DNA of 64,000 bases from Balamuthia mandrillaris (taxonomy: Eukaryota > Discosea > Longamoebia > Balamuthiidae), in assembly GCA_031835245.1 (NCBI GenBank), contig JAVKOQ010000038.1:206001-270000 (forward strand). Direction: 5' to 3'. The notes beneath the pieces are model-generated. The model was not told the DNA's origin. It saw only the letters and a list, made by a program, of their open reading frames with translations, and ran no database searches. Positions 269 through 48,746 of this stretch are shown one piece after another. Each line of letters opens with the position of its first letter. Positions within the stretch are counted from its first letter, which is position 1. Both the position numbers and the translations under genes were made by a program.

Positions 269-4519
<4,251 letters not shown>

Positions 4520-34372: not shown

Positions 34373-35894
34373 TTAGGCGACCTTGTTGAGGAGAGCATTG
34401 TGCAAGCTATGCAGCTGCGAAGTCCACTTTTGCAAATGACCGTACTTGGCCACTGAACCTCTGTTAAGCCAACAACAACAACAAAATTGTGTTAGAAAGC
34501 AGGAAGGAAAGAAGGGAAGGAATAAATGAAACAAGAGGACAGCAAAGAAAGAAGAGTAAGAGAAAACACAAACCCTTGGTCAAGATACAACAACTGGTTG
34601 ACCTGATCGATTTGGCCTTCGATCCTGCTGTCCTTGTCGGTGGAGAGGATCAAAAAGACAAGCAGTTCTTGCACGTCCAGCGTAGAGATGTTGAGCTGCT
34701 TGGCGAGGAAGGGCAGGTGCACGCGGGTGTAGGGCTTGATCATCTTCAAGAGGGCCTGTGTGCGGATCTCCCGCAGCACGTTCTCCATGAACTGGGCGAT
34801 GAAAGGGTCCCCCATGATGACGGAACGGTGCTCTTTGAGGATCTTCTCGAACCTATTGATCTCATTGTTTTGATATGCGCTCAGCAGCTCTGACATTGGT
34901 TTAATTTCAGCATGGTTCTGCAAACTGTTGACATAGTGTTTGTTTCGTAAGTACGTGTTTTTTCTATCGGAAAAAAAAAGTGAAGGGTACAAGAAAACAA
35001 AAGAACAGAGAAGAATGAGCAAAGATGAAGAACGAAGAAGTACGTTTTCGTTTCAGGCGAGTCGAAGGGAGAAATGTCGGAAAGCATCAACATGTTGGCA
35101 AGCAGGATGTACTTGAGGCAAGGGATCTTGAAGCGACTGCCTGCCTCTTCGAAAAAGTTGAAAGCCTCGAAAAAGGCAGAGTAGGCATCGTTCCATTGGT
35201 GCTCCTCCATTTTGAGCTTACCGCCCACAAAGTGAAAGATGGCCAATTTGCTGTTGAGAGTACCTGGGTTCTTCCTTGCTGTCTCGAAGCCTTTCTCATA
35301 GTATTCCTAATTAATACATTAAAATCGGTTAAAAACAAAGAACAGGAGAAATCGGTTAAAAACAAAGAACAGGAGAAGATACGCAGAGAGAGAGAGAGAG
35401 AGAAAGAAAGAGTGTTCAGCAGTCCAGACATATTCAAAAATTGGTATTCATCATATGTGGCTGTTTTCTCTCCCTTCTACTCAATTTCACCTCTGAACAA
35501 ACAAAGAACAGAACACAAACAATACATATAAAAACATACCTTTGTCCTCTTCCTATCCTTCTTTTCCATGTACATTTGGATGGCCAAAGAATAAATGTCA
35601 AGCAACTGGTTGCCTTTCTTGGGGTTTTCTGTTCCGTCCTCCAACATGCAAGAAGCGGTCAGGTCCGCCAAGATCTGTCATGGAAAATAGCGGTGAGATC
35701 TCTTTTCGTTGGCCGAAAGGAGGAGAGAGGGGGTCCAGTTGCGGAACAAACCTTCTCCAGTTTCTTGAACATCTTTTTGTCAAACATTCGCTGAGCCAAC
35801 TTCAGATTTGTCTTGAACCACAAGTTCTATACAACGAGAGAATGGAGCGTTATTGGCTGTGTGGTTGGCACATGGGGGTTTTTTTTAAAAAGAG

Positions 35895-36634: not shown

Positions 36635-37159
36635 GATGGTGCTTGTTGTTGTTGTGGGTGGTGGGTTGGGGTGGGGTGGGGGTAAGCTGCTCTGCGCTAC
36701 ACGATTCAGTGGGATTGGGGGGGGGAAGGTAGCGCTCTCACAGGCCGAAAGAGAGAAAGGGGACACAACAGCCGAAAAAATTAAATGCTAACTTTTTTTT
36801 CTTTCTCGCTGAAAAATTTTCCCACAATCAAAGTTCGGCGTTCGACTCCTCGTTAAATCCCCCGTCGTCCCGAAAAAAGGTTGGAATGTTATGTATGCCA
36901 AGCATCTTTGGTATGCGTGTCGACAGCATCTTCCTGCCACGGAGGACCGGATTGAGGACCTCTTTATGTAACTCTCCCTTTTCTTGTTGCTTTATTTTTC
37001 GCTGCTACTAGAGTTAACAAAGACAATGGCACACTTTGGTAGTGGTAGAGCGTGGCTTGAGAATGATTTGAGCAATATGGCACATCGAAATTGTAATGCT
37101 GGCACCATTCTCACTCAAAGTGAATGCATTTATGTTGGAGAACATCATTACAAATGGCC

Positions 37160-37208
<49 letters not shown>

Positions 37209-37348
37209 CCTTGTTCGTTTAAACTGTGGCCGGCTGCAAGGGGAGGAAGGGCCGGCCAGGAGAAGAAAAGGAATTAATATATAGAAAAGAAAAAAAAGGA
37301 GGGGTAAAAAAGAGGTGAGGTATTATTATTATGTTCTGACAACAGCTT
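36635..37348. promoter_or_regulatory. CSN2 upstream region and 3' flank of the TSP1 gene
   Basis: The right-hand genes are both on the minus strand, so this 714-nt stretch holds the CSN2 promoter (GT-rich, CACCCC-like repeats just upstream of the ATG) and the end of the next gene. A GA repeat lies at about 37158-37203. A short plus-strand frame near 36890 (KHLWYACRQHLPATEDRIED) looks protein-like but is too short to classify. Confidence 0.4.
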
Positions 37349-38035
37349 TTACAACCAGAAAGCGTGGAGCGAGGCAGCAGCAGCGCACTCATCCTCCGGA
37401 CATTGGTCAGCCTCGGGCAAGTCGCAAGGGTCGGTGATGCTGCTGTCGCCAATGGAGTAGTCCAAAAGGATAGGAACAGACAGGAGGGAGACATCCAAAG
37501 CGTGCACCTCAAGGTTGACACTGTCGACGGTGAAGGTGGTGGCGCCGTGACCCAAATGTGTGCCGTGGAAGACAAGGTAGAGACCGCCCAATAAGGGGAC
37601 CTCGTAGATAGTAATTTCGATCGTTCCTTCGTCTGTTTCCAGCTCGTGGGACAGAGAAGCGGTGTCTGAATCACCCTGAAAGGTGTAGGCAACTGTGGCA
37701 CCAATGGAGATGGGGCAACGACCGATGTGAATGGTGACGGATTGAACGCTGGCGCTGAGGGAATCGTCAAAATCCAAGAGATCAGGGTTGCCTGCACAGG
37801 TCACACTGAGATGTTCCGTGAAGCATTCAAACTTATCTTGGGTTTGGGAGAGCCATCAAAAGAACAGCGATTGGGGCGGGTTTTGGGCATAGTGTTTGTT
37901 TGTTTGATCGTTTGTTGGTTGGTTGTTTGGTTGGTTGGTTGGTTTGTTTGTTAGTTGGTAAGTTTGTTTGGTCAGTGAGTTAGTTTGCTTACCGTCATTG
38001 CCATAAACACAGTCACCTCCTGTGCGTATGAGAGA

Positions 38036-38079
<44 letters not shown>

Positions 38080-38746
38080 GAGAAAGAGAAGAGAAGAGAG
38101 ACAAGAGACGAGAGACGAGAGACGAGAAAGAAACTTAAGAATGTGGCGATGACAAAAAGGAGAGCAACCAAGCAAAAACAAACAAACCAGAGCAGCTGCG
38201 AGTTGCTACAGGCTTTGTTCCACCGCACTTATAGTCGTCAGTCTTTTGACCATCTAACTCACAAAACACTTCCCGACTCTGTTGGCAGTCCTCCTGACAG
38301 GTGCCCCACGACGAAGTCGCCCATTGAGCCTCTTCCTCCTCCACAGGGATGCAAACCCCTCGGATGTCGTACTCGAGGGGGCAGGCGTACCAAAAGTTGG
38401 TGCAAGTTACGGTCACGCTGATCTGTGAGGACCCTCCCACGTTTGAGGAGGCGCTGTTGTAGCAATATACGTGGTCATCGCTGGAGGCGCCCGTATAATA
38501 CATCGAGGATTCTGCGTGGTCCTTAGTGCGAACCGTGAAGGTGCTTTCGTCGGTGGAATGAATCCTGAGTTCTGAGATGGCAGCAATTTCACCGTTATCG
38601 CAAGACCCACTGAAAAGTTGGCGGGTGGCTCCAGCACTGACCACAGCCTCATCCATGCATGCCACGCAATTACACTGAGCAAGGGAACCGAGGGGAACCG
38701 CTGCAAGCAACAAGAGCACCAGCAAAGGGAGTTCTGGGTTGAGCAT
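37349..38746 (-). CDS. Secreted protein with a thrombospondin type 1 repeat
   Basis: Minus-strand exons 38746-38188, 38019-37993 (27 nt) and 37836-37349 sum to 1,074 nt, 357 residues. The signal peptide is clear (LPLLVLLLLAAVPLGSLAQ). A Cys-containing N-terminal domain is followed by a TSP1-like motif: WATSSWGTCQEDCQQSREVFC, then CGGTKPVATRSCSGGDC, with the final GGDC supplied by the 27-nt exon. The C-terminal part (CAGNPDLLDFDDSLSASV) is a beta-rich, Cys-poor domain of unknown type. There is no membrane anchor, so the product is probably extracellular, for example in the coat, matrix or adhesion. TSP1 repeats are common in animals and apicomplexans; here the match rests on Trp, Cys and Arg spacing. 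Confidence 0.8.
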
Positions 38747-39485
38747 ATCGTGTTACAAAGGAATTGTGTTGTGAAAGTATTGTTTGTTGGCAAGAAGAAA
38801 AAGAAAAAAACAGCACCAGAAGTTGGTGCATTTATTGCATGTCAAGTAAGTTTTTTTTAAAACTGGTCTCATCATTTTTGTTTAATTAATGCCGAGTTTT
38901 GAATGCAAACTCCGAAATTGTAGTCTTTTTTTGGAAATGCAATTCGATAGTTTCCAAAACTGGAAAGAACGTGCCAAAATGGTGCATGGTTATGTTGCAT
39001 GCTTCACCAATCGTGTCGCTCCTTACCCCAACCAATTATTTCGTTTATCCTTTCAGTCTCGAGAAAATTCGTCAATAGCAGTCTTACTGTTGTTTACTCC
39101 TCATTTATACCATTTACTAGGAAACCAGATTTAGTGCATGACGCATTTTTTCATTTAACTAAATGGCAACTTTTTGCCTCGTCTTGTTCATTTATCAATT
39201 CCGAAGCCTCTTTTGCCAACCAATCGCAAAGAATAAAGCAGAGCAATATACTTGGTTGCCAGATGCACCCGAACAAGTCTTGGGTTTATTCACAAGAAAA
39301 GAGGTGTGGACCAAAGTGTGTGCTTTGAGTATGTCATCCTATTACAGCTAACACGCATACTGAAGATGCTTGTCATATATGTATAACATTCCATCTTCTC
39401 TCTCACAGATTGGTCTGATTTATGGACTAAACCCTCTACTCTGGAAAGCTCTTTAACTTCTCAACAGACCTTGTCAGGGAGTATG
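38747..39485. other. AT-rich intergenic stretch without genes
   Basis: About 740 nt with visibly lower GC than the rest. The part next to the TSP1 gene has a TATA-like AATAAATGC on the minus strand about 90 nt before the ATG. The remainder shows only short frames on both strands with no recognisable protein. Part may be decayed mobile-element sequence continuous with the integrase-like fragment to its right. Confidence 0.5.
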
Positions 39486-39745
39486 TCACCAGTGATGTCT
39501 TGAAGGATATAGGCTCTGATAATGGTGCAGTAGTGGATGATGAAGGGACCAAGAAATTTGGGGTTGGTTTTGGAGTTTGTTGACGAGTTTTTCAACAGCT
39601 AGATGTACTTCTGTTGGTGTACTGCTGATTGTTGAATGATAAGAATTGTTTAAGTTTCCAATAACCAACTCAAGTACTTGTTTCCAGGTTTTAGTACCCT
39701 CTGTAGTCATAAACTGGAATAACAACTGCTTCATAGTAGCAGACC
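39486..39745 (-). mobile_element. Integrase-like retroelement fragment
   Basis: A minus-strand frame of 82 residues contains TWKQVLELVIGNLNNSYHST followed by ISSTPTEVHLAVEKL. The pattern W-x3-L-x3-V...N-x3-HST...S-x-TP-x-E is typical of the C-terminal part of integrase cores of LTR-type retroelements. No other conserved integrase motif, long terminal repeat or reverse transcriptase was seen, so it is a relic or a misread fragment. It joins directly to the truncated oxygenase copy at about 39740. Confidence 0.5.
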
Positions 39746-40191
39746 ACTCTCATGTCCACCACATCTACTCGGACATTTGTCTCGGTTGTTGGTTTTGTGT
39801 TGCTTTTCTTGCAAGGTGGGCGCGTTGTATGCACAGGAAAGAGCTGCCAAAGGAGAGGAGAGAGGAAATCGGCCAAGGGTGAGGCCAAATGCCTCCTCAC
39901 TCCCTTGATGCCCAACAAGTTCAAACCTCCTTGCTTCACCGCCATCTGGAATCGTGGACCAAGAGTCCTTTCCATGTGTTTCGCTTCTTCGATCAGTGCA
40001 GAGCAAACCTGTGGAGAGAACAGCAGAAAGAGAACCACTTGCAGGAACTGGTTTTGTGCGGCGGAGGCCCATTGTTGCGGAGGTGCGCGGGCGGCAAGGG
40101 ATGGTGACTCGGAGGTCAGCAGCCAACGTGAAAGCTCCAGCAGCTCGGGATGCAAAAACGTGTACGGCACGGTGCGTCTTCCTCCTTTCAT
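39735..40191 (-). pseudogene. Truncated copy of the 2OG-oxygenase domain
   Basis: This copies the N-terminal part of the downstream oxygenase-F-box-RhoGEF gene. Shared stretches include PELLELSRWLLTSESPSLA, PPQQWASAAQNQF and AVKQGGLNLLGI. At the DNA level a block of about 65 nt near 39837 is identical to one near 42056. The copy ends at VVDMRVV, before the iron-binding HxD motif, and then runs into the integrase-like sequence. It therefore lacks all catalytic residues, the F-box and the DH domain. A different leader precedes it, so a short chimeric protein cannot be excluded. Confidence 0.75.
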
Positions 40192-40480: not shown

Positions 40481-42412
40481 TTATTGTTGGGAACGGTGTA
40501 TCTCAGCGTTGATAATGTTGCAAATCTGCTCAACGTGCTGTAGCAACGCTTGAACCTTTGTGCAGCGACGCAATGTCTCCTCCTCCTCGTCCTCCTCCCC
40601 TGCAAACTTGTGGTAATACCTGAAAAGCTCTCTCAACAAGAGGGCGTATCTTGGTAGTCGGCTCACTGGCATCACCAAATAACTTTGGAGTTCCAACCTT
40701 CGGTCATCCTTCTCTTCCTGCTGCCTAATAAACTCTGCAAACTTCGGATACTTTTGTGTGGCACTCTGAAGGTGTTCTCTAACGTGCATGTAGGAGACGC
40801 AATAAGGCACATACAAAGGTTCAAGCAAAGAGATGAATCTTTCAAAGGCAGAAGGAATGTCTGGCTCTGCTCCCCTCTCTCGCAGGCCTGGACACACGTG
40901 GCATGTTTCCTGGGCCAAGAGAAGCTCTCTATACAAGTCCCTGTGTAGTCCCAACACTTGCTCCACGTCGCCAAAGATGTTGCGCAAGAGATCTGCTGGC
41001 AATAAAGCCTTCTTTGTCTTTATCTTTTTCGTTGTCTTTCTTCGCTCCTCTGTTCCTTCTTGAAGAGGTTTGAGATAGAGTTGGACCACCGATTCGAGTG
41101 CGTTGACGTAGGAAGCTTCGGTCATAATGAGCTCTTCGATGACCTTCGCGCGTCTCTCTTTGGAAGACAGATTCTGCCAGGAGCCAAAACTCGGGCTATC
41201 CGCCGCCGCTTTTGTTTTTCGTTGTTCTTGTACAAAGGCGATGTAACGGCCTGCCCAGTTTGCTTTCTTCTCGTTCTTCTCTTTCTTCACGTAGTGCTTC
41301 TTTTTCACTCTTCCTTCCTTCTCGTGTTTTTCCAGTTTGTTTTTCTTCTCCTGCTGTTTGCCCAAGTCTCTCGTTTGCTCAGGAAGATGCCTGCGCCAGA
41401 GAGAAGGATTGTCTTCAATGAGCTCTCTCCAATGTCGGCAAATGGCTCTGGCGCAAAGCAGCTCTTCCGCTGTCAGGAAAGACAGCACGTAGCTTTGCAG
41501 CTCATTGCCCAGATGAGAGAACTTGCGGAAGGCCTTGGCTTGGACAGATGGTTTCATGCGAATGATGAGATGGAAGCGTTCTCCTTCTTGTGTGTTGGTT
41601 GTTCCATTAGGAAGATCGGCCACATGGAGCACTGCACATCCGATATTGAGTAATTCTCCTTCATTGTGCTCATCTTCTTCTCTTTCTCTTTCTCTTCCTT
41701 TTTCTTGTTCTTTTTCTTTTTCTTTCTCCTTTTTGCGTTCGTTAGCTTTGGTTGAGGCAAAAGACAAAGGAGAGGAAAGACGAAGAACGCATTGACCGGT
41801 CATAGGGTCCAAAAAGAAGAGGTCAGCACCACGGCAGATGCTCGTCGCTGGGCCTAAGCACACGTTGAGGGTCAAAGTTGCTCCCTGATCAATGTGAAGC
41901 GGGTGGTAGCTGCTCTCTCTTTCGTCAGCAGAGTAGCGAACCACTCTCATGTCCACCACATCTACCAGCGCGCTTTGGGCTTTCTCTTTCGCTTTCGATG
42001 TGTCCTTGTTCTTGCACTTCCCTTTAATCGAAGGCATAAGCATCGTGTGGGATGGAAAGAGCTGCCAAAGGAGAGGAGAGAGGAAATCGGCCAAGGGTGA
42101 GGCCAAATGCCTCCTCACTCCTTCTATCCCCAACAAGTTCAAACCTCCTTGCTTCACCGCCATCTTGAATTGTGGGTCCTCTTCACCAAGCTCTCTTTCC
42201 ATGTGTTTCGCTTCTTCGATCAGCGCAGAGCACACCTCCGGAGAGAACAGCGGAAAGAGAACCACTTGCGGGAACTGGTTTTGTGCGGCGGAGGCCCATT
42301 GTTGTGGAGGTGCGCGGACAGCAAGGGAAGGGGACTCGGAGGTCAGCAGCCAACGTGAAAGCTCCAGCAGCTCTGGTTTGGAGAACGTTTTGCCAACGTT
42401 ACGATGTTTCAT
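40481..42412 (-). CDS. 2OG-Fe(II) oxygenase - F-box - RhoGEF (DH) fusion protein
   Basis: One uninterrupted frame of 643 residues with three unrelated domains. Residues about 45-290 form a prolyl-4-hydroxylase-like 2-oxoglutarate/Fe(II) oxygenase, with iron ligands H173 and D175 (HPLHIDQ), distal H263 (VLHVADLP) and 2OG-binding R279 (GERFHL). A Lys/Glu-rich insert sits before the distal His. Residues about 298-342 are an F-box (FSHLGNELQSYVLSFLTAEE, then CRHWRELIEDNPSLWRR). Residues about 421-638 are a DH domain (KVIEELIMTEASYVNALE, FERFISLLEPLYVPYC, LQSYLVMPVSRLPRYALLLR). No PH domain follows. This would couple an oxygen-dependent hydroxylase with SCF recruitment and Rho/Rac activation. The combination is unknown to me; the function is inference from the parts. 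Confidence 0.88.
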   Translation of the reverse strand: MKHRNVGKTFSKPELLELSRWLLTSESPSLAVRAPPQQWASAAQNQFPQVVLFPLFSPEVCSALIEEAKHMERELGEEDPQFKMAVKQGGLNLLGIEGVRRHLASPLADFLSPLLWQLFPSHTMLMPSIKGKCKNKDTSKAKEKAQSALVDVVDMRVVRYSADERESSYHPLHIDQGATLTLNVCLGPATSICRGADLFFLDPMTGQCVLRLSSPLSFASTKANERKKEKEKEKEQEKGREREREEDEHNEGELLNIGCAVLHVADLPNGTTNTQEGERFHLIIRMKPSVQAKAFRKFSHLGNELQSYVLSFLTAEELLCARAICRHWRELIEDNPSLWRRHLPEQTRDLGKQQEKKNKLEKHEKEGRVKKKHYVKKEKNEKKANWAGRYIAFVQEQRKTKAAADSPSFGSWQNLSSKERRAKVIEELIMTEASYVNALESVVQLYLKPLQEGTEERRKTTKKIKTKKALLPADLLRNIFGDVEQVLGLHRDLYRELLLAQETCHVCPGLRERGAEPDIPSAFERFISLLEPLYVPYCVSYMHVREHLQSATQKYPKFAEFIRQQEEKDDRRLELQSYLVMPVSRLPRYALLLRELFRYYHKFAGEEDEEEETLRRCTKVQALLQHVEQICNIINAEIHRSQQ

Positions 42413-42525
42413 GTATTTCTTCGTTCTGTTGCTGGAAAGAGAAGCTTAATTGCTGTATTTCTTGTAGACACCACAAAGAAAAGGAGAGGCAGAAAGAAAC
42501 GTTTACTCTGTTTCACAGCCATCAC

Positions 42526-45170
42526 TCATGATGTGAATTGATCTTGAAAACGAGTGAGATAGTCCATCAATTGCTTTACACGAAGGCGGAGGCGTGCGTT
42601 CTGTGCCTCCACGTGTCGAAGACACTGGTCCTTGTGCCGCAGCTGTGCCTGTAGCTGCATCACCAGGGAAGATGTTTCTATTTGTTGCGGCTGGGTAGAA
42701 GAGGAAAGAGAGGGGTGTTGTTGTGGAGCTTGATGGGCTATTGTTACATGATTAGAAACAGGAAGAGTGGACGGGGAAGAAGGCGAAGGAGGAGTTTCAG
42801 GAACGACGGTTGCTTCAAAAGCTGCTTCGGTGGTGCCAATCCTTGAAGATGATGGATAGTGTTGCTGTAGTGGTGGTTGTGGTTGTTGATGGCGAAGGTG
42901 CTCTGTTGGTTTCTGCAAAGATGTGTCGCTGGCTATATCGGTGGCCTTTCGTCGTTTTCTCTTTCTGTGTTCTTCTTGTTGAAGTTCTTGCGCTTTTTCT
43001 TGAGCTTCGGTTCGCAGTTGCTGTTGTTCTTGTTCCTCTGTTTCTTGTTCTTGTATCCGTTTTGATTTCTGTGGTTGTTGTCGTTTGTTTGCACGTTCTT
43101 TGCTTTGCCCTCTTCGTTGATGGTGTTGATGTGGATGCTGTTGTTCTCGTTGGTCAACTTGATGTACTTGCATTGTATCTTGTTCTTGTACCTGTTGTTG
43201 TTGCTGTGCTGTTTCTTGTTCTAGATTCTGTTGTTCTGTTTCTTGTACTTGTCTTGGTTGTGGCTGTCGTTCTCGCTGCGGTTGCTGCTCAGCAATAACA
43301 TCCAAGGCAGAACCATGTGGTGGCTGTACACGTACACTCGTTTCAAGCTCCCTTCTCCTACCACCTTTCTTACCTTGGGTTGTGATGTTGCTCAGCGAAT
43401 CTGTTTCTCGAGCATCTCTTCGCAGTTTTTCAACACGTTGGCTTTGAGCCGTGGTGGGTTCTTCCTTCTCCTTGTGCTCCTTTTTCTCTCGTCGTTCTGA
43501 ATGTTCGTGACGTGAAGTGGTTCTGTGCCTAGACGACCTCTTCTTCTTGTCTTCCCGCTCTGTCTTCGTCCTCCGCTTGCTCCGTCTTTTACGTTTTTGC
43601 TGTACTTCATCATCGCTAAAAGAGGCAATATCCTCTTCTTCATCAACTTCGTCTGTTCTGCTTCTTTTCATGATATCTTTTCTTCGTTGGAAGAGCGGAA
43701 GCAGTTCTTTTGATTCTCCCACAAAGCGAGCACGAAGAGAACGCGTTAGTGATGGAGAGGACGAATCAATGAAAGAAGAAGAAGAATTAAGGAGTGCAGA
43801 AGACAAAATAGAATCTGAAGCACTCTGCTTCTTGTGATGCGTTTTTGAAGAAGTGAGACGGTGAGCACCTTGTTGTGGTCGCAGTTTTTGATTCATCACC
43901 GCTTTTTTTGTTTCATGCGCGTCGTCGTAATGGACAAGAGGAAGAACGGCAGGAACCTGAGAAAGAGCAGAAGAAGAGGGAACGGAGGCAGACGTATGCG
44001 TTGTTTTAGTCGTTGCCGAGAGATCAGATGGATTAGGAGAACAAAGAGGAAACGGAGGTTCGGTGACTGTTTTTTTGATAGCTGTTGGGGACGGTGAACA
44101 AGAAGAACAAGACGGCGAAGAGGATGGAGGAGATGGTGGTGGCGATGGAGAAGCAGCAGTCGATTCTTGCTCGTTTTGTTCTTTAGGAAGAGCGGAAGAA
44201 ACAGAGGAAGTAGAGGATTGTTGTCGTTGTGATGGTTGTTGTTGTTGTTGTTGTTGCGAGAAAGGGGAATGTGGAATAGGAATGGAACGCGGGGACCGAG
44301 AGTTGGCAGCTCGAGAATAGGGAGAAGGTTGAGATGCGGAGATACTGGTAGAGAACAGCGGTGGCGGAGGCAACAGCGGTCTGTGGCTGCGGGTGGGACT
44401 GGTTGCTGCTGCAGAGGCCGTTAGCAGGCTGCTTTGACGGTGAATAAAGTCGAGAGAGACTAGTTCTCCGTTTATGCGACAGGATGGCTTCTTTGTCTGT
44501 GAATGCTCTACAAATAGAGGACGAGAGAGAGAGAGAGAGAGAGAGCAGGAAAGAAGAGAAGAAACAGGGTTCAGACATCGAACAAAGCAGCACAGAAAAT
44601 AGAACAGGAGTTACCCTGAAGGGAGGATGAACTATGGACAACCTGTCGATGAATGGCATAAGAAGAGGAGGAAGAGGAGGAAGAGGAGGACAAAGCACCA
44701 CCAGCAGCAGCCGCAGCACCACTCGGAGCAGAAGAGTTCGCCGCTTTCTTCTTCTTCTTCCGAATCTCCTTTCCGGGCTCTTGCACTTGCAGTGACGCGT
44801 TTTGGGGTGTTGTTGCTGCGGCTGGTTGTCTGTTTGTGTTCTTTGTTGTTGTGGAGGAAGAGGCGAGAGCAGATGAAGAAGAAGGAGTAGAGGTGGAGGC
44901 CGCAGAACGTTGGGAGGAGGAGAAAGGGACGGGTGTTAATGACGGGGTGGAGAGTTGGATGCGCCGCAAGGAAGTGCAAGGGGTCGAGGTGGTTGTGTCT
45001 GAATCATGGGCAGGAAGGTCGCTTTTGGCGTAGATGGAGGGAGGTATTTCCTCGAAGCCCTCTTTGAAGGAAACAGTTTTCTTTGGTTTGGGCTGTCCAT
45101 CTCTGCTTCTCTTCATTTTCTTTTTCTTTTTCAACCGTGTGGCCCGCACACCACTTCCAACCACCACCAC
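42526..45170 (-). CDS. Low-complexity Ser/Gln-rich protein with C-terminal coiled coil
   Basis: Minus-strand exons 45170-44615 and 44507-42526 sum to 2,538 nt, 845 residues. A short conserved-looking segment near the N-terminus (TVSFKEGFEEIPPSIYAKSD) is followed by Ser/Pro/Ala-rich and basic stretches. A bipartite Arg/Lys region (KRKRRSKRRTKTEREDKKKR) could be a nuclear signal. Long Gln/Glu tracts follow. The last 40 residues form a leucine-heptad coiled coil (QLQAQLRHKDQCLRHVEAQN). Composition suggests a nuclear scaffold or transcription factor, but there is no recognised DNA-binding domain. The start could be a later Met (45113). Confidence 0.72.
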
Positions 45171-46064: not shown

Positions 46065-46800
46065 GCAGCAAGAAAGAAGAGACAAAAAGAATGGAAGAGG
46101 AAAGGGGAGGGATAAGAAGAGCAGATGAAGGAAGAGATAAGAGCAAACCTCAGGGACCCAGGTTTCGGTGACGTTGTCAAAGGAGGTTCTGGAGGCCACA
46201 GAGAAGCACAACAAAAAGATGTCTGTCTTCTGGTAGCTCAGTGTTCGGATTCTGGCGTACGCCTCCTGACCTGAAAGGTTGCTTATAGTCAGCCAAGTCA
46301 AAAGCAAACAAACAGAACAGAACAGAAATGAGAGACAGAAAGAGAACAGCGAAACAGTCGCGGAGGGGAAAGAACAAAGAGAAGAGGAGACGCCAAAAGA
46401 AAAAGGGGGGAGAAATGGAGAGAACAAAGAACGAGAGAAGAGAAAGGGGAGAAGAGAAGGGGAGGAAAAAAACCAATAAAAAGCGAGAGACAAAGGGGAG
46501 AGAGAGAAGAAAAGACAAACCAGCAGTGTCCCAAAGAGAAAAGATGACCTCTTTGCCTTCCACCAAGACGGTGGCCTCATAGTTGTCGAAAACTGTGGGT
46601 ACGTAGTCGGTGGGGAACTCATTTCGTGTGTAACTTTGGGAGGGAAACCAACCAGGTCAGACGGACCCCAAACCCCTCACAGTAAAAGAACAGAAAAAAA
46701 AAATAGGGAGAAAGGGGACAAACCTGATAAGCATGCAGGTCTTACCTACAGCACCGTCTCCCACGACCACGCATTTCACAGTCCTTTTGTCTCCAGACAT
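45681..46800 (-). CDS. Rac-family small GTPase, copy 1
   Basis: A Rho/Rac GTPase switching actin organisation. Minus-strand exons 46800-46724, 46633-46521, 46270-46149 and 45947-45681 give 192 residues. All G boxes are intact: GDGAVGKT, effector region [15 protein letters not shown], and TKTD (TKxD form, as in Rac). The C-terminus ends in CALF, a CaaX box expected to be geranylgeranylated, with a short Lys/Ser stretch before it and no long polybasic run. Exon lengths 77, 113, 122 and 267 match the neighbouring paralogue at 47602 except for one extra codon in the last exon. The body differs by only a few residues (KEQGDCVS versus [15 protein letters not shown] versus KKCVLF). Confidence 0.97.
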
Positions 46801-47601
46801 CGTCTTCCTTGTATCGTGCTAGTGGTGACCAAACACAAAAGGATGGTTTTAAAATTTTTGACTTGCAAAGAAAGAAAGAGCACCAGAATATACACGGGGA
46901 ACAGGAGCAACTCCGAAGTTAAGAGACTCAAAGAAAGAAGGAAGGAAGGAAGGGAAGAGGGTCCAACGAACGAAATCCAACGGAGGGAAAGGAAAGGAAA
47001 GGAAAGGGGGAAAGAAGGAACGGCCAAAAGCAGCAAACAGGAACACACGACTAGACAACAACACCAACAAAAGAACAAGGCACCTACCCTCGACGTTACT
47101 TGTACAAAGCTTGTTTTTTTTTTGTTTGTTTTGCTTTGGTCTTCTTCTTCCTTTCGCCCACCCTTTTTTTCGAAAGCGGAAGAACAGCTATCAGGCAGAC
47201 CCTCGATCTCCCTCGTTCCTCTGCATTGCCTGGGTTTAAATTTCATCCTCCACTCTGGAACCCATGACGAGGCAATACTGTCCAATGATTTTCGCATTCA
47301 ACAAACGATGCCCGCTTTGGACACAACCAACCATGTTCCAGGTCCCATCCTTTCGCACCGAGGGTGACAAATTTAGATTTACCCAAATATGGTATAGTTT
47401 AAACCATTTAAAATAGTTGGTAACGCGAATAGGGCAATCATCCTCAAAAACAGGCTCACAATTTTTTTTTGTCGGGGTTCTGTCTGTCCTTCCCCTAAAA
47501 ATCTCTCTCTCTTTGCTGTTGCGGTGGGAGTGCGTATTTTTTTTCTCTGCGGGCTTTTTTTTTTGGTTGTAGCGAAAAAAAAAAGTGTAGAGGAGAAGAA
47601 G
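46801..47601. promoter_or_regulatory. Divergent region between the two Rac genes
   Basis: About 800 nt between head-to-head Rac ATGs, so both promoters lie here. The left part is GA-rich with a GGAAAG repeat near 46986-47010. The part nearest the rightward gene is T-rich with an A-rich run before the ATG. No protein frame is credible. I saw no extended inverted repeat in this central part, in contrast to the genes themselves. Confidence 0.45.
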
Positions 47602-48746
47602 ATGGCAACGGACAAGCGGACTGTGAAATGTGTGGTTGTAGGAGACGGTGCTGTGGGTAAGACCTGCATGCTTATCAGGTTTGTTAGATCATTCTCCTAT
47701 CTTTTTTTTGTTCGCCTCCTCTCCGCGCAATCAACATTATATCTTCCGTAGCGGAACGCTGTAATTTTTTATTTTATTTTTCCTGTTTGTCTTTCTTTTC
47801 ATCTTTTTTTTTTCCTCCTTGAGAGGGGTTTGGGGTCCGTCTGACCTGGTTGGTTTCCCTCCCAAAGTTACACACGAAATGAGTTCCCCACGGACTACGT
47901 GCCCACAGTTTTCGACAACTATGAGGCCACCGTCTTGGTGGAAGGCAAAGAGGTTATCTTTTCTCTTTGGGACACTGCTGGTTTGTCTTTTCTTTCCCCG
48001 CCCCCCTCTCTTCCCTTTCCCTTTGTCTCTTGCTTTTTTTTTTTTGGGTTTTCCCCTCCCCTTCTCTTCTCCCCTTTCCTTTCTCTCGTTCTTTGTTCTC
48101 TCCATTTCTCCCCCCTTTCTCTGTTTTGTTGTCATATTTGGTGGGTTGCTGACGGAGACAACAATAGGCCAGGAAGCATACGCCAGAATCCGAACACTGA
48201 GCTACCAGAAGACAGACATCTTTTTGTTGTGTTTCTCTGTGGCCTCCAGAACCTCCTTTGACAACGTCACCGAAACCTGGGTCCCTGAGGTTTGTTCTCT
48301 TCTCTTCCTTCATCTGCTCTTCCTTCCCCTTCTCTCTAGTTTCGTTCCTATATTCTTTGTTCCCTTACCCTTTTCTCTTCCTTGTTCTACTCCCTCTTCT
48401 TTTGTCTCTTGCCTTGTTGCTTCTCTGCTGCATACCAACAATGCTTACCGAATACAACGTCTTTTCTAACTGAAAAATATAGCTGAAGCACCACTGCCCA
48501 AAGACGCCAATCATCTTGGTGGGCACCAAGACCGATTTGCGCAAGGGACAGCAAGACTGCGTAACTCAGGAGGAAGGACAGAGGTTGGCCAAACAAATCA
48601 AGGCCTACAGGTACATGGAATGCAGCGCATTGACCAAAGTGGGGTTGAAGGAAGTGTTCGACTCGGCCATCACCAGCATCGTCTGCAATCCCAAGCCCGG
48701 AGCTGGCAGTTCCTCTGCTGGAGGCAAGAAGTGTGTTCTCTTCTAA
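47602..48746 (+). CDS. Rac-family small GTPase, copy 2
   Basis: Exons 47602-47678, 47868-47980, 48168-48289 and 48483-48746 give 191 residues. It carries the same intact GTPase motifs as copy 1 and ends in the CaaX box CVLF. The N-terminus is [10 protein letters not shown] where copy 1 has [10 protein letters not shown]. Introns sit at identical positions. Near the acceptor of intron 1 the intron sequence itself is shared with copy 1 (a block of about 45 nt ending CCCTCCCAAAG). The two genes form an inverted, divergently transcribed pair, evidence for recent duplication or ongoing gene conversion. Confidence 0.97.

Follow-up and report, generated by a model that had tools for sequence, protein, structure and literature searches.

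Introduction

Human KDM2 proteins combine a JmjC domain with an F-box, and many F-box proteins carry a substrate-binding module C-terminal to the F-box. Two pairings that bear on the present work are already known, an F-box with a dioxygenase in the Dictyostelium protein JcdI and an F-box with a Dbl homology (DH) domain in the animal protein ECT2L. A gene in a 64,000-nucleotide stretch of Balamuthia mandrillaris DNA (contig JAVKOQ010000038.1 of assembly GCA_031835245.1, positions 206,001 to 270,000; the whole stretch is termed the window) encodes a protein, NCBI QOT17_005695, in which a region derived from a 2-oxoglutarate (2OG) oxygenase is followed by an F-box and a DH domain. The joining of all three is unusual and, as a combination, seems to be new.

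The available portion of PMC9485057 describes JcdI (Fbxo13) as a Skp1-binding, O2-dependent protein with an F-box and a JmjC dioxygenase. The Balamuthia fusion protein is similar in that one protist protein carries an F-box and a domain of the 2OG dioxygenase type, whereas JcdI is there given a JmjC-class domain, an N-terminal F-box and an active enzyme, with no mention of a DH domain in that portion (PMC9485057). In the fusion protein the domain is OGFOD2-like, precedes the F-box and is without the distal iron-binding histidine, and no JmjC family is listed for it. The same portion of PMC9485057 presents PhyA as a separate prolyl hydroxylase acting on Skp1 and linked to O2. PhyA and the fusion protein are alike in linking an enzyme fold of the 2OG oxygenase type to Skp1 and O2, whereas the domain of the fusion protein is OGFOD2-like, has lost one iron ligand and lies in cis; JcdI and ECT2L are closer precedents than PhyA.

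ECT2L (ARHGEF32, LFDH, FBXO49) is listed as a guanine nucleotide exchange factor (GEF) with an FBXO alias and with its GTPase given as undetermined in the excerpt of PMC7281527. This animal protein resembles the fusion protein in holding an F-box and a DH domain together. The excerpt of PMC4556705, which covers Xenopus Fbxo49, contains neither RhoGEF nor ECT2L and so is of no help here. Dbl-family RhoGEFs such as Tiam1, intersectin and Entamoeba FP10 share the complete DH domain; the fusion protein differs from them in having no pleckstrin homology (PH) domain in frame and in carrying an F-box and an oxygenase-derived region on the N-terminal side. OGFOD2 and the lysyl hydroxylases (LH3/PLOD3 and mimivirus L230) have a helical part and a beta-helix in the same order and with the same motifs, whereas the fusion protein has an asparagine for the distal histidine, a PF25238 score below the cut-off and the added F-box and DH domain. 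The presence of an F-box in ECT2L fits its FBXO alias; that F-box presumably lies before the DH domain, and we know of no oxygenase region in the protein.

Results

Organization of the fusion protein

The genome searched is a 64.8-Mb assembly of 775 contigs, in which the window is part of contig C37. The minus strand from 42412 to 40481 is a single stop-free frame of 643 codons, in exact agreement with the positions first annotated, and its regions are arranged as follows.

40481..42412, minus strand: whole coding frame, 643 amino acids, with oxygenase-derived region, F-box and DH domain (stop-free frame; NCBI QOT17_005695)
42053..42313, minus strand: OGFOD2-like N-terminal helical part, residues 34-120 (PF25238 below cut-off; profile of the genome's own OGFOD2s; hhalign 93%, residues 12-74)
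41552..41962, minus strand: double-stranded beta-helix part, about residues 151-287 (alignment, common TLNVCLG block; profile of the genome's own OGFOD2s), with a charged low-complexity insert at about residues 223-254
41387..41521, minus strand: F-box, about residues 298-342 (PF12937 2.4e-10; PF00646 5e-7; FBXW7 in the PDB 1.3e-7)
40553..41143, minus strand: DH (RhoGEF) domain, residues 424-620
42432..42506, minus strand: putative 75-nucleotide GT-AG intron implied by the NCBI model, unproven (NCBI model P0002 against the DNA)

One protein almost certainly holds all three regions. QOT17_005695 contains the frame at 100% identity and is the same protein, except that the NCBI model is longer by 14 residues at the N-terminus; the first exon of that model (42507-42529) runs into the stop codon of the gene upstream. 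That gene (42526-44373, minus strand) encodes 615 residues of low complexity without a match in a Pfam search, and its TGA overlaps the ATG at which NCBI starts the fusion protein. The cis-fusion of oxygenase-derived domain, F-box and RhoGEF is supported. The triple order proposed in the initial annotation is real, and that annotation requires correction in one oxygenase key residue and in the strength of the oxygenase detection, which is weaker than claimed.

The F-box and the DH domain, the two parts of the frame with matches above Pfam cut-offs, are as originally proposed. The F-box is recognized by two Pfam families above their curated cut-offs, F-box-like PF12937 over residues 303-342 (40.5 bits against 24.3) and PF00646 (29.8 bits against 20.5), and the fragment matches FBXW7 in the PDB. 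It is quite likely, given this domain, that the protein binds Skp1. Skp1 genes are present in the amoeba (six genome matches, some on likely duplicate contigs), and the best match retains the motif NDFTPEEE, which we take to hold the proline targeted by PhyA. The DH domain matches RhoGEF PF00621 at 9.6e-33 with 114 bits, above the Pfam cut-off, and is typical and complete, with strong matches to Rac GEFs. The window copy thus has both a DH domain above the curated cut-off and the DH fold that define the Dbl family, the fold comparison of the full model effectively testing residues 405-643 only. The DH domain of ECT2L is among the PDB matches (11xu, 5.3e-5) in the middle of the table, and an Entamoeba GEF, Tiam1 and ECT2 match better. 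No PH domain is present among the nine Pfam families listed up to E = 1, and the protein ends at residue 643, 23 residues past the DH match, so the domain is without a PH partner as had been noted. The window copy probably has GEF activity, judging by its DH domain.

The oxygenase-derived region

The claim of an oxygenase domain holds only in part, since the region lies below every Pfam cut-off and is found by a profile of the genome's own OGFOD2s. No oxygenase family passes the Pfam cut-off in the 643-residue frame, and none of the 2OG-FeII_Oxy/P4Hc and JmjC families is listed up to E = 1. The OGFOD2-like family PF25238 matches residues 34-120 at 2.3e-4 with 21.6 bits against a cut-off of 31, and the genomic frame of a second copy on contig C403 (described below) scores 22.3 bits. 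A genome search with PF25238 gives 16 matches, 11 above the cut-off and five below it; three of the five belong to the fusion family (two on C37, one on C403) and two are pieces of the C151 gene.

Alignment of the fusion copies with four canonical OGFOD2 frames of the same genome (C100, C44, C18 and C151) shows the blocks in the same succession, beginning with a helical part that contains 'F.LFSPEVCSALIEE' and continuing with HxD, 'TLNVCLG' and 'LH...GER..LII'. A profile built from three of the genome's OGFOD2 genes was run at E <= 10 against 753 targets (the two full copies, 251 open reading frames of the window and 500 shuffled sequences) and picks out three of them, namely the window copy at 4.2e-6, the C403 copy at 4.7e-8 and, at 3.3e-6, the frame of a truncated third copy; none of the 500 shuffles and none of the 250 other window frames is among the hits. 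Comparison of the fusion copies with the four OGFOD2 frames by hhalign gives 93% probability for the helical part only (residues 12-74). A mixed profile of two fusion copies and the four OGFOD2 frames, which therefore includes canonical OGFOD2 genes themselves, finds the viral lysyl hydroxylase 6ax6 (2.3e-16), presumably mimivirus L230, and LH3 (3.5e-16) in the PDB; with a profile of the fusion copies only, neither is reached. From the block order, the OGFOD2 profile, the hhalign result and the mixed-profile matches, descent from the OGFOD2/lysyl-hydroxylase group with strong divergence is well supported. Common descent with OGFOD2 is detectable at scores below the family-profile cut-off. By these sequence comparisons the domain is of the OGFOD2/lysyl-hydroxylase kind and not of the PhyA/P4H (prolyl 4-hydroxylase) kind, and the parallel with PhyA that had been drawn fails on this account and on the absence of P4H/2OG-FeII_Oxy families from the matches up to E = 1.

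The active site

The iron ligands of LH3 are given as His667, Asp669 and His719, with Arg729 binding 2OG (PMC6082870, in the part available), which places the distal ligand histidine ten residues ahead of the 2OG-binding arginine. The same spacing is visible in the printed LH3 line, was measured in the genome's OGFOD2s on C100 and C44, and is seen in C347 and in a lysyl-hydroxylase-like frame on C15; the comparison leaves out C151, in which a presumed intron interrupts the stretch, and C18/C755, where the last exon is unread. With LH3 as the yardstick the active-site positions are the following.

41888..41896, minus strand: H173-I-D175, the kept HxD pair (alignment)
41624..41626, minus strand: H263, matching the histidine of the conserved 'LHLG' block and not a ligand, 16 residues before R279 (alignment)
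41606..41608, minus strand: Asn269 at the distal iron-binding histidine position, R279 minus 10 (LH3 yardstick)
41576..41578, minus strand: R279, the kept 2OG-binding arginine position

Three of the four key residues initially proposed, H173, D175 and R279, are placed correctly, whereas H263 is not a ligand and the true distal position is Asn269. The equivalent residue of the C403 copy is Asn243. The HxD...H iron triad is thus incomplete in both full copies, in which the 2OG-binding arginine is present. Since the residue ten before the arginine is an asparagine in both, the oxygenase is very probably non-catalytic, a dead enzyme (pseudo-oxygenase). The retained H173, D175 and R279 mean that residual metal or 2OG binding could occur. 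A PhyA-like active oxygenase was considered as the principal interpretation and set aside, as the distal histidine is replaced and the P4H family is unlisted up to E = 1.

Copies of the gene, locus structure and selection

Window positions 10843-56861 have a colinear counterpart in contig C403 (42.9 kb), which on that ground probably represents an alternative haplotype or else a segmental duplicate. The two longest blocks are 98% and 96% identical, and most other colinear blocks are 84-92% identical. The corresponding place in C403 holds a second full frame of 640 codons with identical domain order. Compared in aligned steps of 150 bases, the two sequences are 92-98% identical upstream and 73-93% identical across the oxygenase; the step that contains the greater part of the F-box stands at 89%, and the linker and DH half together range from 45% to 72%. 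The DH half of the fusion gene is a local hotspot of divergence between C403 and the window. Synonymous divergence (dS) between the two copies is 0.31 for residues 1-125, 0.40 for the beta-helix without its insert, 0.06 for the F-box and 1.37 for the DH domain, and the ratio of nonsynonymous to synonymous divergence (omega) is below 1 in residues 1-125, the beta-helix (0.36 without the insert) and the DH domain, all estimates being by NG86 from a single sequence pair of mosaic history. We infer that the copies are a mosaic of two tandem copies, formed by unequal exchange or gene conversion.

The C403 DH domain scores lower than that of the window copy (82 compared with 114 bits) and has an aspartate in the last DH helix where the window copy has an asparagine, at a site that we take to be a position important in Tiam1 (N1232). 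The NCBI model of the C403 copy, P0003, has 631 residues against 640, the missing nine (27 nucleotides) lying inside the open frame, apparently through an error of the gene model. The Pfam matches listed for P0003 do not include PF25238. Next to the fusion gene the window holds two further features of the locus.

39691..40191, minus strand: QOT17_005694, a third copy truncated to its N-terminal part (80% identity across query positions 4-160)
36879..39731, no strand assigned: segment without a match in colinear C403, beside the truncated copy (contig comparison)

Over 430 bases the truncated copy shares 92.8% identity with the C403 copy, and over 323 bases it shares 90.4% with the window copy. 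The unmatched segment holds a 130-base dispersed repeat (39468-39597), and a Pfam search of the open reading frame at 39486-39734 gives no family.

Neighboring genes

46180..46763, minus strand: gene for a Rac-like GTPase of the Ras superfamily, from its P-loop to its effector region (PF00071 8.5e-8), with further exons to about 45951
47600..48466, plus strand: second Rac-like GTPase gene in divergent orientation, partial extent (PF00071 7.2e-8 and 2.5e-9)

The two nearby Rac genes of the initial annotation are confirmed as Ras-superfamily genes, and their P-loops at 46761 (minus strand) and 47641 (plus strand) lie 4.3 and 5.2 kb from the fusion-gene start; from their motifs we take both to be Rac-like. 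Downstream of the fusion gene, window positions 34495-35052 (minus strand) carry a gene for COP9 signalosome subunit 2 (1.5e-34 to CSN2). The COP9 signalosome regulates Skp1-Cullin-1-F-box (SCF) ligases. Proximity of these genes is not evidence for a shared pathway.

Occurrence of the domain combination

No described protein with all three regions was found in protein-database and literature searches, as had been stated, and these searches are insensitive for other species. Protein-database searches for the same order return Balamuthia proteins only (2 matches among 8000 candidates, 1 among 197 and 1 among 4063); absence from other species is unproven, because the search of 4063 candidates missed even the C403 copy and the Balamuthia genome was the one amoeba genome covered. 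Phage records contain no match to the fusion protein, as expected. The genome has 184 RhoGEF matches and at least 150 scored F-box matches, exons and likely duplicate contigs being counted apart, and among the matches listed, in which the F-box of the fusion gene itself is omitted, no other F-box/RhoGEF pair in one frame was seen by eye.

A different pairing is found at C149:1-9000 (frames 692-1462 and 1339-2433, plus strand), where a single frame holds a P4H-type oxygenase (PF13640) and then an F-box; an actin-like frame follows directly. The distal histidine there looks intact by eye, an HxD lies in an upstream frame and the actin-like part is in a different frame. To judge from these sequences, the C149 gene ranks above the fusion gene as a candidate for oxygen-SCF coupling. 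Its P4H-type oxygenase and F-box suggest repeated origins of oxygenase-F-box pairings in the Balamuthia lineage.

Discussion

The best reading, which we consider reasonably probable, is that the protein is a Skp1-docked Rac/Rho GEF with a non-catalytic OGFOD2-derived domain, a lineage-specific F-box-type RhoGEF. The F-box would dock the protein on Skp1/Cullin-1, as expected of such a domain, and the DH domain, the fold of which is observed, would bind and activate a Rac/Rho GTPase from what appears to be the C-terminal place where F-box proteins often carry a substrate module. Docking on SCF may let the GEF signal limit itself, by ubiquitination either of the GEF or of the GTPase bound to it, a mechanism advanced here tentatively. 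The N-terminal region, a former 2OG oxygenase that has lost the distal iron-binding histidine, would most likely serve as a non-catalytic binding or scaffold domain.

Several observations weigh against this interpretation. The F-box lies in the middle of the protein, an N-terminal position being called typical in the excerpt of PMC9485057, and its predicted local distance difference test score (pLDDT) is below 50 in the full model. In that model almost the whole stretch of residues 1-354 has a pLDDT under 50, and the separate oxygenase model has a mean pLDDT of 38, so the active site is read here from the sequence. A profile of the two fusion copies only finds no oxygenase in the PDB, returning one unrelated chain at E 1.7, and the active-site histidine, aspartate and arginine are kept. 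Omega is uninformative for the F-box (1.03, interval 0.18-3.3, nine changes) and for the linker (1.14, 0.46-2.8), and the two copies are not fully independent evidence, since they look mosaic and lie on colinear contigs.

The reverse emphasis, in which the protein is foremost an SCF substrate receptor whose DH domain captures Rac/Rho for ubiquitination with exchange minor or lost, is unlikely; it agrees with a DH domain placed C-terminal to the F-box without a PH domain and with the lower score and the aspartate of the C403 copy, whereas the window copy has a typical DH domain with strong Rac GEF matches. Retention of H173, D175 and R279 and the omega of 0.36 over the beta-helix also bear on a distinctly unlikely alternative, a pseudo-oxygenase that binds metal and/or 2OG without turnover, reports 2OG and not O2, and gates the F-box/GEF. 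The structure models for this region are of low confidence, and conservation between the copies may partly reflect recent gene conversion, which is possible because dS is lower in the oxygenase than in the DH domain. The specific form of this idea, a non-catalytic metal/2OG sensor acting through His173/Asp175/Arg279 whose ligand state would gate an SCF-docked Rac/Rho GEF, is quite improbable.

In the model raised by the initial annotation, the fused 2OG oxygenase would be active, respond to O2 or 2OG and thereby govern both the recruitment of SCF and the activation of Rac/Rho. The HxD pair and R279 are retained in both copies, omega is below 1 in the oxygenase part, and the genome encodes, in the C149 frame, a P4H-type oxygenase with an F-box and an apparently intact distal histidine; JcdI is a precedent for an O2-responsive F-box dioxygenase (PMC9485057, in part). 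Such an activity is nevertheless very improbable. The distal ligand is an asparagine in both full copies, mutations of the iron-binding residues of LH3 are reported to abolish lysyl hydroxylase activity (available part of PMC6082870), P4H/2OG-FeII_Oxy families are unlisted up to E = 1, and in the excerpt of PMC9485057 the O2 effect of JcdI overexpression is independent of the F-box. Oxygen or 2OG coupling to SCF and Rac by the protein's own catalysis is accordingly unsupported, and oxygen could still act in trans through the amoeba Skp1 with its NDFTPEEE motif. A fault of assembly or gene modelling, or a duplicate that has no function and is decaying, would suit the unstable locus with its truncated third copy, inserted segment and divergent copy on a colinear contig. 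Such an explanation is highly improbable in view of two full copies that stay open over 643 and 640 codons with the same domain order, of their omega values under 1 in the oxygenase and in the DH domain, and of one NCBI protein model for the frame.

If the GEF is SCF-docked, as the preferred reading holds, activation and destruction of a Rho-family switch would be brought together in one protein. The missing iron-holding residue weakens the oxygen-sensing idea and turns it into a sharper question, whether the domain is a dead scaffold or a metabolite sensor. Were the sensor gating true, one polypeptide would link central metabolism to ubiquitination and actin control.
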